This document shows positions 21,453 through 26,049 of a stretch of DNA of 36,959 nt, one piece after another. The notes under the pieces are model-generated. The model saw nothing but the letters and a program-made list of their open reading frames with translations. It did not search any database and had not been told where the DNA came from. The stretch is from NCBI GenBank assembly GCA_003218535.1, contig QHNV01000044.1, positions 1-36,959 of the forward strand. The letters are read 5' to 3'. Every line of letters starts with the position of its first letter. Positions within the stretch are counted from its first letter, which is position 1. The stretch comes from Verrucomicrobiota bacterium. Lineage in GTDB: Bacteria; Verrucomicrobiota; Verrucomicrobiia; Chthoniobacterales; UBA10450. Position numbers and translations under genes: made by a program.

Positions 21453-22931
21453 TTACGGGCAGACGAGTACCTGGGGCGAATTGGTTAGCTCTTGTTTTGT
21501 GCCAGAAATTCGAAGATGGATCCGGTGCGAGCCGCGTTTTTCGAGCGGCGGTGGCGTCATGATGCGAAAGCCGTGCTCGCCCTTTCCGTAGCCCGCATCC
21601 GCGAGATCCTGCCGGAACTGATTAGCAGGGATTGTCATCAAATACTGATCGCCATCCCAAAGATCAACATTGACTTTCGTGTTCGGCTGGTACTTGTCCC
21701 AAACCCAGCCATAGATTTCATAGCAGTTGGCCCGCTCAACTTCGCCGACATGATGCGGCAGTGGCGCAGCGCCAATGCGTCCCGAAAAAATCAGCAATCC
21801 GAAGCAAACAAAGTGGAATGTTATAAAGACAGCTGTGGCGCGCCAGGCGAAAGTGTCGCGCCAACGCTGTCGCACTCTGTTCAAGTTAGAAAAAACATGG
21901 AACGCCGAGAGCAAGGTCGCTTGGTAGAGACCATAAATGATATAATGCGGCTCAGGCCCGTGCCATAAACCCATTAATCCAAACGCCAGAAAATATCCCA
22001 AGATGGCGCCGGTATGTTTACTCGCAAACCATTGGCCACGCGTGGCAGCAAGTAGAAACCGCATGTAAACGTGATCGCGAAACCAAAACGAAAGAGTGAT
22101 ATGCCAGCGGTTCCAAAAATCGCGGATATTTCTGGCGAGAAACGGCCGATCAAAGTTTTCCGGAGTATGAACGCCGAAGAGATAGCTAAGAGCGATGGCA
22201 AAAGCGCTGTATCCGGCAAAATCAAAAAACAAATAAAGGCTGTAAGCGTACATGTAACTGATGAGCGCTCCGAAATGCCCACTGCTCGCCGCACGATCGA
22301 GCCAGTATTGCTTGATTAGCGCCGCAAGTATGAATTTGTAGAAAAAGCCGCGAAAAATGCGATGCACGGCGTTGTCGAGATCAGCCAGGCATTCAGCGCG
22401 TGTTCGCGCCTTGCTCCAATCGCTAGCAAAACGACGATATCGGTCGATTGGGCCAGACGAAATAGTAGGAAAGAAAAACAGGAACAGGAAAAGATCGAGT
22501 GGGCCAGGTAAAACGATGACTTTATCCCGGAGGCAGAACACGATATCGAGTGCGCGGAACGTAATATAGGAAATGCCGAGAAACCCAAACTGGCTTCCTG
22601 GTGAGATGACGGGCAGAAATTTTGCCGCCACCAGTGGAAGTAGGCTCGCCCCGATAGTGGTAAAGAATAGCCAGCCTCCTCGTGCGCCTGCACTTGCAAA
22701 CACACGCACCGTCGCCCACTGCCAGACCGCAAACCCGATGACGATCCAGATTTCACGCACCGCGACATCGGGACGGATGTGTAAGAATCCGTTATACTGC
22801 AGGAGCAGCATAGCGACGGTCACGAAAAGAGCCCAGCGCCAGCCGGCGCGCCCAAACATGCCGAGGATCAGTGTCGGAACGACCGCGTAAAGCAGCAGCC
22901 CGAAATAAGTGAAATCGGCGTAGGGAATCAC
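21453..22931 (-). CDS. dltB: DltB-like MBOAT acyltransferase with extra C-terminal domain
   Basis: FFPTISSGPIDRYRRF; RNIRDFWNRWHITLSFWFRDHVYMRF; LMGLWHGPEPHYIIYGLY; immediately downstream of dltA. Confidence 0.92.
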   Translation of the reverse strand: MIPYADFTYFGLLLYAVVPTLILGMFGRAGWRWALFVTVAMLLLQYNGFLHIRPDVAVREIWIVIGFAVWQWATVRVFASAGARGGWLFFTTIGASLLPLVAAKFLPVISPGSQFGFLGISYITFRALDIVFCLRDKVIVLPGPLDLFLFLFFFPTISSGPIDRYRRFASDWSKARTRAECLADLDNAVHRIFRGFFYKFILAALIKQYWLDRAASSGHFGALISYMYAYSLYLFFDFAGYSAFAIALSYLFGVHTPENFDRPFLARNIRDFWNRWHITLSFWFRDHVYMRFLLAATRGQWFASKHTGAILGYFLAFGLMGLWHGPEPHYIIYGLYQATLLSAFHVFSNLNRVRQRWRDTFAWRATAVFITFHFVCFGLLIFSGRIGAAPLPHHVGEVERANCYEIYGWVWDKYQPNTKVNVDLWDGDQYLMTIPANQFRQDLADAGYGKGEHGFRIMTPPPLEKRGSHRIHLRISGTKQELTNSPQVLVCP

Positions 22932-24385
22932 AGCGAAGCGGCCAGCTTCGCTCGGTCGGCTTTGCCGTTCGCCGTCATCGGAAATGCGTCAAGGAAAACA
23001 AATTTGCGTGGCAGCATGTAGGCTGGAAGCCGCTCGCCGAGTTGTTTGCGCAGCGTGTCGGATAATTCGAAATCCGATTGCTCGCCGCGCGCGTTAAGGA
23101 CAACAAAGGCGGCCAGCGATTGGGCCGCGCCATTTTTGACTACCGGGATTACGACGGCATCCCGCACCTGGGTCAGTACCCGAAGATTTGCTTCGACGTC
23201 ACCGATCTCAATGCGATAGCCATAGAGCTTGATTTGCGCGTCAATACGCCCCTCAAAGAAAAGCAGACCGTCGCGGAACCGCCCCAGGTCGCCAGTACGA
23301 TAAGCGCGCTGACCGCGATGTTGGAAAAAAAAGGCTGCAGTGAGATCGGGGCGTCCAAGGTAACCGGGACTTACGTTCGGTCCTGCGATGATGATTTCGC
23401 CGCGCTCGTTCGCCGGCAGGGCTTCGCCCTTTTCGTTCGCGACGAAAACTTCTGTCCCGGGCATTGGGTGCCCTATCGGGAGGGGCGAATATTTTTCCAA
23501 AATTGCAACGTCGATGCGGACAGAGGTTGTGGCGACTGTCGTCTCGGTCGGGCCATAAGTGTTCCAAACTTCGGCGTTGGGAAAACGTTCCAGCACGCGC
23601 GCGGCAGTCTGCGGCGCCAATGTTTCACCGCAAAAGAGGAAACGCCGCACATAGGGAAGCATTGCCTCATTAAATCTCTCTTCGACGAGGCACATCTGCG
23701 CAAACGAGGGCGTGGAGACCCATGTAGTCGCATTGGAACTGGCCAGCGCGCGGTAAAGCATTTTCGGATTTGCCACAAGATCGCGACTGATATTGAAAAC
23801 GGTACCTCCCGTAACTAGGCTGCTGTACAGAGCCATCACCGAGACATCGAATGAGAAAGGAGGCTGATTTAAAAATATCTCACCCTGCTCCACGAACTTT
23901 TGCTCGGCCAGCATCCAGTCGATGAAATGTTCCAGGCAAGCGAGCGTAATGACAACCCCCTTGGGTTCGCCCGTGCTGCCGCTCGTGAAAAGAATATAAA
24001 ACGGATCGTCGCGCTGCACGTAACTGACGGCGGTCGGCTCGTCTACTGCGGGCATTTGTGCAATCTCTTGCGGTGTGAGGACCAAGGCTGCACGCGAAAT
24101 CGCCAGAACTTTGTCGATGCGCTGTTGGGGAAATGCCGTATCGATCGGCACGTAAGGCCGGCCCGATTTTACCGCGCCCAGGAACGCGATAAGCATTTCC
24201 TGTTCGCGATGCCCAAGTACCGCAATGGGGGCGCGATCATCGCCGAAACGCCCTGCGAAATGAGCAGCCAGCGCATCCGAGCGCCTGCGCAGCTCGCCGT
24301 AGGTTAGGGTTCTGTCGCCGTTAATATATGCGACGGCCTGAGGGGCTACTGCGCCCCAGTGATCGATTCGTTCGAACAGATTCAT
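22928..24385 (-). CDS. dltA: D-alanine--carrier protein ligase DltA
   Basis: FYILFTSGSTGEPKGVVI; VWNTYGPTETTVATTSV; GYRIEIGDVEANL; operon context. Confidence 0.93.
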   Translation of the reverse strand: MNLFERIDHWGAVAPQAVAYINGDRTLTYGELRRRSDALAAHFAGRFGDDRAPIAVLGHREQEMLIAFLGAVKSGRPYVPIDTAFPQQRIDKVLAISRAALVLTPQEIAQMPAVDEPTAVSYVQRDDPFYILFTSGSTGEPKGVVITLACLEHFIDWMLAEQKFVEQGEIFLNQPPFSFDVSVMALYSSLVTGGTVFNISRDLVANPKMLYRALASSNATTWVSTPSFAQMCLVEERFNEAMLPYVRRFLFCGETLAPQTAARVLERFPNAEVWNTYGPTETTVATTSVRIDVAILEKYSPLPIGHPMPGTEVFVANEKGEALPANERGEIIIAGPNVSPGYLGRPDLTAAFFFQHRGQRAYRTGDLGRFRDGLLFFEGRIDAQIKLYGYRIEIGDVEANLRVLTQVRDAVVIPVVKNGAAQSLAAFVVLNARGEQSDFELSDTLRKQLGERLPAYMLPRKFVFLDAFPMTANGKADRAKLAASL

Positions 24386-24523
24386 TCAGAAACCCTGATA
24401 AACAAAGGGCGGAGTGGAGAAGTCACCACGGCCATACATGACGATCAGACCCACGATAACGGCGAAGTAGTACAGAATAAGCAGTAATCGCCGCAACGTT
24501 GGATGTTTCTCGATCCAGCTCAC
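24386..24523 (-). CDS. dltX: DltX-like 45-aa membrane microprotein
   Basis: Manual translation: MSWIEKHPTLRRLLLILYYFAVIVGLIVMYGRGDFSTPPFVYQGF*; GTG start overlaps dltC stop (GTGA), TGA abuts dltA ATG; one TM; C-terminal FVYQGF resembles the DltX F-x-Y-x-x-F ending; below the ORF-track size cut-off. Confidence 0.9.
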   Translation of the reverse strand: MSWIEKHPTLRRLLLILYYFAVIVGLIVMYGRGDFSTPPFVYQGF

Positions 24524-24771
24524 GCGTGCAACCGGCGCTGGAGATCAGCGATGATTTCGCGTGGCGTTCTCCAGCTTTCCCGCTCGAATTCAGCCGGAGA
24601 AACCTTAATGTTGAATTCGTGCTCGATTGCTACCATCAGTTCAACCGTTCTCATCGAGTCGAGCACCTGACGATCGTACAGAGGCAGATCAAGATTGGCG
24701 TAAACCTCGTCAGTCTCGGCAACAGAGGCCAGAACCTGCAATACTTTGTCGGAAAAACTGGCAGTCATCAT
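24520..24771 (-). CDS. dltC: D-alanyl carrier protein DltC
   Basis: ACP-like fold with YDRQVLDSMRTVELMVAIEHEF (phosphopantetheine serine in LDSMRTVEL). Confidence 0.92.
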   Translation of the reverse strand: MMTASFSDKVLQVLASVAETDEVYANLDLPLYDRQVLDSMRTVELMVAIEHEFNIKVSPAEFERESWRTPREIIADLQRRLHA

Positions 24772-24822: not shown

Positions 24823-26049
24823 TCAGTTGGATGGGATACGCCCATGAAAGAAATCGTCAAGGGCACGATTGTAAAACATCCATCCTTTCGCGGCAAGGTG
24901 AGCGCTTGGTGCGCCCTCCGGTTGCGGACCTCGATGGTAAAGAAAAGCCGCATCCTCCTCATGCTCGGCAAAATCGGCCAATGTAACATTGTACTGTCGC
25001 GCGAGTGCGCGAAGTTTCTCGTAATAAACAACGCGGGCCAAACGAGAAACCCCCACCTCATCATAATATCGGCTGTCCAGCGGCATACTGAGTAGGAGTG
25101 GCTGGGCGTGAACCTCTGCTAGTGTACGTAATAGCAACTCTAAATCACCCCATTCGCGCGCTCCATTCACGTGCTCGCGAAACCACTCGTCACGAGGGCC
25201 AGCAACCATCTGCCCTTCTGAACGCGACGCCTTGTCCTTTTTGTTGTCATCCTTGTTTGCCTGTCCCAATTCACCGGCTTTTGCAATGAGTCTAGGCCAA
25301 TCTAGCATTCGGGGGCGGCGTGCCGGAACAGATTTGGTCTCACGCAAAATGTAGCTTAATGCCGCGAAATGATCCTGCAGATCCAGCACGGCATCCTGAA
25401 TTTTCCCAAGTGGCCAGACTATGCAGAAAGCGATTTGGTCAAGTCGTCCTCCAGAAGCGAGCCGTTTGAGTGCAAATTCAAGGAGCGGATCTTTTTCCAG
25501 CGTACTTGGAAACTGCACCATTCGGGCAGCGATTGTCCGCTTCAGCTCGAAATCGAGAACATCGCCGAAGGCGAGTTTGCTGGCCGCAAGCAGCGAAAAA
25601 TTTCCTTCGTACCAGTATGGGCTAGTGGCTGGAACCACAAACCAGATCGGTGAAAGCGAGATTGCGAGCTTCTTGCCATGGAGGTCCGAACCAAGCGCGC
25701 CGATTTTTTGCAACATGATCATTGACGTCGCGCCTGCCTTGCCTACAGGCGAAAGTTGAAAGCCGGTTGGCGCGGCGCGAAAAAAGTTTCCTCCCCTTTC
25801 CGGAATCTGGCCGAGCAGTTCCGAGCTACCGTAAAGCGGTAACACGTCTGACGCATGAGCCGCGGCACGTTGGAAGGCAAGACCTTGATTCTTTAGGGAA
25901 AATGCCTCGGGAGCAGTCGCAGAAATCGTACGTTGTTCGACATGGATGGCGATCGCTCGAGCAGCGAACAAAATGACTGCCACGACACCAACGGTGATGA
26001 GAGCTGGAAAAAAATGCGGCATCCCTGCCTTGGCGTCCATGTGTACCAT
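24823..26049 (-). CDS. dltD: DltD-like D-alanyl transfer protein
   Basis: N-terminal TM; LPLYGSSEL near the DltD catalytic Ser signature; HLAAKGWMFYNRALDDFF C-terminal; upstream of dltC. Confidence 0.86.
   Translation of the reverse strand: MVHMDAKAGMPHFFPALITVGVVAVILFAARAIAIHVEQRTISATAPEAFSLKNQGLAFQRAAAHASDVLPLYGSSELLGQIPERGGNFFRAAPTGFQLSPVGKAGATSMIMLQKIGALGSDLHGKKLAISLSPIWFVVPATSPYWYEGNFSLLAASKLAFGDVLDFELKRTIAARMVQFPSTLEKDPLLEFALKRLASGGRLDQIAFCIVWPLGKIQDAVLDLQDHFAALSYILRETKSVPARRPRMLDWPRLIAKAGELGQANKDDNKKDKASRSEGQMVAGPRDEWFREHVNGAREWGDLELLLRTLAEVHAQPLLLSMPLDSRYYDEVGVSRLARVVYYEKLRALARQYNVTLADFAEHEEDAAFLYHRGPQPEGAPSAHLAAKGWMFYNRALDDFFHGRIPSN

Follow-up and report, generated by a model that had tools for sequence, protein, structure and literature searches.

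In the Dlt pathway, D-alanine is passed from the carrier protein DltC onto a tyrosine of the microprotein DltX via DltB, and then onto a serine of DltD (PMC12148441). DltX ends in the C-terminal motif FXYXXF (PMC12148441). A leucine of its helix and a tyrosine near its C-terminus are completely conserved, and D-alanylation in B. thuringiensis needs dltX, which is essential for it (PMC5541007). The protein has been surveyed as almost exclusively Firmicute, with 805 of 809 species (PMC5541007). Other bacterial MBOAT pathways have been described as having no DltX-like microprotein and carrying the motif fused to the MBOAT itself (PMC12148441). We found no description of DltX in Verrucomicrobiota in the open-licence literature.

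We analysed a 36,959-nucleotide stretch (the window; contig QHNV01000044.1) from a Verrucomicrobiota bacterium; the closest relatives that bear a name are Chthoniobacter flavus Ellin428 and MAGs assigned to Verrucomicrobia and Chthoniobacter. The minus strand carries dltD, dltC, dltX, dltA and dltB in this order, with the following features.

24823-26049, minus strand: dltD, SGNH-type D-alanyl transferase, 408 aa (PF04914 E = 2.9e-44; TIGR04092 150.1 bits, cut-off 150)
24520-24771, minus strand: dltC, D-alanyl carrier protein, 83 aa (TIGR01688 75.6, cut-off 52.35; NF003464 86.1 bits, cut-off 68)
24386-24523, minus strand: dltX, 45-aa microprotein (translation, coding constraint, orthologs, PF12459 E = 2.4e-5)
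24431-24502, minus strand: predicted transmembrane helix, DltX residues 8-31 (AlphaFold2 model, mean pLDDT 83.4)
24389-24406, minus strand: C-terminal hexapeptide FVYQGF, DltX residues 40-45 (F40, Y42 and Q43 invariant in 35 orthologs; the FXYXXF motif of DltX)
22928-24385, minus strand: dltA, D-alanine carrier-protein ligase, 485 aa (NF003417 564 bits, cut-off 476)
21453-22931, minus strand: dltB, MBOAT acyltransferase, 492 aa (TIGR04091 418.1 bits, cut-off 375)
21456-21758, minus strand: DltB C-terminal extension, from about residue 392 to 492, a predicted beta-sandwich (AlphaFold2 pLDDT 94.9, mostly beta)

The dltX frame (24386-24523, minus strand) translates to VSWIEKHPTLRRLLLILYYFAVIVGLIVMYGRGDFSTPPFVYQGF followed by the stop codon, with the GTG start read as M. 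Its GTG (24523-24521) overlaps the dltC TGA (24522-24520), its TGA (24388-24386) runs into the dltA ATG (24385) with no gap, and the overlap of dltA and dltB is of the same GTGA type as that of dltC and dltX. Coordinates and translation agree with the original prediction, which had described a 45-codon minus-strand ORF starting in the dltC stop and abutting the dltA start. The predicted placement between dltC and dltA also stands, but the contrast drawn with Firmicutes is weaker than claimed, as here and there alike dltX is the gene immediately before dltA. The X-A-B block is shared, and the difference in order is confined to dltC and dltD, which are downstream in Firmicutes and upstream here. 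A Lactobacillus crispatus plasmid (L094:1551-4712) has dltC-dltX-dltA-dltB, the order seen in the window. A Ligilactobacillus murinus plasmid (L092:3265-4673) has a lone dltB downstream of a bactofencin A family bacteriocin gene, with no dltX or other dlt gene annotated nearby.

The product of the 45-residue ORF is almost certainly the DltX known from Gram-positive bacteria. Searching it against PF12459 (formerly DUF3687), as had been proposed, gave a significant match over profile positions 4-43 of 43 (E = 2.4e-5), with a score of 24.2 bits that falls 0.8 bit below the curated Pfam cut-off of 25 bits. The same model matches all 35 relatives (best E 7.4e-10), and scores above the cut-off were obtained for Chthoniobacter flavus (31.5 bits), L039 (31.2), L036 (28.2) and L032 (25.3), the last being an ortholog 89% identical to the window DltX. 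Aligned by hhalign to four Firmicute DltX sequences, the DltX profile gave 96.9% and E = 1.5e-10 over 40 columns. An NCBIfam search returned no DltX match, and phmmer and profile searches of PDB sequences with DltX returned no relative. Together with the co-occurrence with DltB described below, the PF12459 match and the similarity to the Firmicute profile bear out the prediction of a DltX-like protein.

Like Firmicute DltX, the protein is a single-TM microprotein of the ~45-50 aa class with an F-x-Y-x-x-F end. In the AlphaFold2 model, residues 8-31 form one helix and a second, short one covers the hexapeptide, with a short linker between them; the single membrane helix and the FVYQGF ending had been read earlier from the sequence. 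In our alignment of 35 sequences (A1), Y19, G33, F40, Y42 and Q43 are invariant, and the hexapeptide directly precedes the stop in 35/35, with one sequence ending in Y rather than F; ortholog length is mostly 43-51 aa, two being longer. L26, the best candidate for the helix leucine and a putative counterpart of Leu23 of the B. thuringiensis protein, is only nearly invariant in A1. Tyr42, in turn, would be the acyl acceptor. This DltX differs from Firmicute DltX in its ending, F-[VI]-Y-Q-[GEA] here and [FY]-I-Y-N-[ED] there, in a conserved YGRGDFSTPP linker, and in a host that has LpxC.

dltX occurs at about 35 loci of the Chthoniobacterales and the Chloroflexota group, always with F-x-Y-x-x-[FY] at the stop codon and, in most related loci examined, upstream of dltA in the order D-C-X-A-B or C-D-X-A-B; the survey of related genomes suggested with the prediction thus found the TM helix and the F-x-Y-x-x-F ending conserved at the same place. 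Among 147 Chthoniobacterales genomes, DltB scores above the TIGR04091 cut-off in 34 and DltX is present in 34, and these are the same genomes in both cases. In the 113 that have no such DltB, DltX is absent as well, an independent negative, and 62 of them have lower-scoring MBOATs only. A1 was built from many of these co-occurrence sequences, with G108, G124, G015, G013, G104 and G145 left out of it. Linkage of the two proteins is clear, but members of a single clade do not count as independent observations, so the chance figure of 4e-34 overstates the statistical weight. The gene is also retained where dltB lies apart (loci L127, L128 and L129); in G108 it stays with dltD, dltC and dltA while dltB is elsewhere, and G015 and G124 keep it beside dltD and dltC. 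In the Chloroflexota group, a label taken from one MAG, dltX is found at five of six DltB loci, the sixth being cut by a contig end. Across a draw of 388 genomes of the phylum, PF12459 gave two matches, none above cut-off, and the A1 model gave the window and one weak match inside a 416-aa frame. Very few Chthoniobacterales are in this draw, and apart from the window none of them seems to have dltB; for this reason the order-wide test of 147 genomes was used instead. A DltB tree, given without support values, intermixes Firmicute, Chloroflexota-group and Verrucomicrobiota sequences, so we claim no direction of transfer.

From these data, we consider it very likely that the ORF is dltX and that Tyr42 acts as the acyl shuttle from DltB to DltD in a complete dltD-C-X-A-B operon. 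D-alanine would be loaded onto DltC by DltA, and the D-alanyl group would then cross the membrane via DltB to reach Tyr42 in the FVYQGF tail of DltX, outside the cytoplasm. From this tail it would go on to the serine of DltD, which would esterify an envelope polymer. The covalent role of the tyrosine, the complex with DltB and DltD and the direction of transfer are ones we infer from work on Firmicutes and on PatA. The window DltB matches the DltB structures 6bug and 8jem, and its C-terminal end is QVLVCP; none of the DltB proteins examined has a fused FxYxxF within its last 60 residues. Because DltB is without the fused motif while other MBOATs have one at their C-terminus, a separate shuttle is expected, and DltX agrees with this role in almost all respects that can be checked. 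PatA-type MBOATs (PMC12148441) have in common with this system the tyrosine motif, the presumed acyl-Tyr chemistry and an SGNH partner, but their motif is fused to the MBOAT and their donor is acetyl-CoA, whereas here a microprotein of its own bears the motif and a carrier protein serves as donor. F-[LI]-Y-x-x-F is likewise found at the C-terminus of five Pseudomonadota MBOATs other than DltB.

The alternative that survives best concerns DltD. Near residue 382, GAPSAHL replaces the D-x-x-H of Firmicutes, and the aspartate is lost in the window and in several genus mates; DltA, in addition, scores 549.2 bits against TIGR01734, slightly under the cut-off of 559.85. The operon could thus transfer another acyl group, or could have degenerated in this genus so that a DltD without the aspartate no longer completes classical D-alanylation. 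We regard this as unlikely, given that DltD keeps the GSSEL serine and the histidine, that DltA is above the NF003417 cut-off and that this genus shows strong purifying selection on dltX. Since the lost aspartate is near the catalytic histidine, the last D-alanylation step may still differ, or be weak, in the genus of the window. At two loci of family f9 (L055 and L073, in G038 and G029), DltD has GSCEL for GSSEL and the block V histidine is missing, and DltX is still there.

Less probable again, and in our view improbable, is a DltX homolog that serves as a structural or regulatory subunit bridging DltB and DltD, with D-alanine taking another route. The single TM helix and the invariant tyrosine and glycine outside the hexapeptide would suit such a role, and a regulatory role of DltX has been discussed (PMC11035591). 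However, the most conserved part of the protein is the C-terminal hexapeptide with its tyrosine, and PatA has been shown to form an acyl-Tyr at this motif (PMC12148441), both of which favour Tyr42 as the shuttle.

The reading of dltX as a coding gene was further examined by codon substitution. Over all pairs of eight close relatives, pN/pS is 0.26, indicative of strong purifying selection and opposite to the lack of coding constraint that would have refuted the original prediction; column-shuffled alignments gave a mean of 0.84 and a minimum of 0.41, with 0 of 1000 as low as 0.26. Out of 44 columns in these relatives, 20 vary at the first codon position, 11 at the second and 40 at the third. 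A chance ORF in a short gap, for which the short length and the absence from the ORF track speak and nothing else, is practically dismissed by conservation in about 35 loci, by complete co-occurrence with DltB and by purifying selection, the codon substitution test already refuting it. dltX is a real, conserved and overlooked gene, too small for the ORF list.

A microprotein also accompanies DltB-like proteins in Pseudomonadota. None of 349 genomes passes the DltB cut-off, and five have a short DltB-like protein, in 5/5 cases with an adjoining 40-aa TM microprotein ending in FEYQ[QK]F. These operons (L122-L126, and L132 on a Klebsiella electrica plasmid) share with the window DltD, an MBOAT, an AMP-binding ligase, a carrier protein and a TM microprotein, and differ in their order, D-X-B-A-C. 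On the K. electrica plasmid, the microprotein (L132:2872-2994) is flanked by DltD and the MBOAT and annotated as a hypothetical protein. It looks like a functional DltX. A Pfam search with it gave no match, and since hhalign aligned the hexapeptide only, it is not claimed as a homolog of the window DltX.

Regarding the acceptor, LpxC was found in the window's genome and in three other members of the order; an Anaerolineales-labelled genome with the same dlt system gave no LpxC match. The LpxC-bearing carriers are probably LPS diderms and, because the window's genome has LpxC, its D-alanine acceptor is probably something other than classical lipoteichoic acid. The DltB tail of ~100 aa, which is common to many Chthoniobacterales DltB proteins and has invariant G, W, R, L and H residues, would be expected at the outer face of the inner membrane. 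No Pfam family covers it in 22 relatives. A Foldseek search with it gave weak Ig/FN3-like matches and nothing stronger, and we therefore claim no function for it. More tentatively, and with somewhat less than even confidence, we propose that the split shuttle is a general dlt design across phyla, LPS-bearing cells included, and that the Chthoniobacterales acceptor is not lipoteichoic acid, with the DltB tail possibly binding it. The design would take the form of a recognisable DltX in Verrucomicrobiota and the Chloroflexota group, and in Enterobacterales of a 40-aa shuttle, which no Pfam model detects.

DltX is thus a known family that is new in Verrucomicrobiota, as far as the open-licence literature shows, and its gene is one that annotation can miss. 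The finding raises the testable question of which polymer receives D-alanine in a diderm that has no classical teichoic acid. More broadly, a constant DltX partner of DltB in the probably LPS-bearing Verrucomicrobiota, together with the DltX-like microprotein of Enterobacterales, would make the split shuttle a trait of the Dlt system, with its carrier protein, and not a Gram-positive trait.
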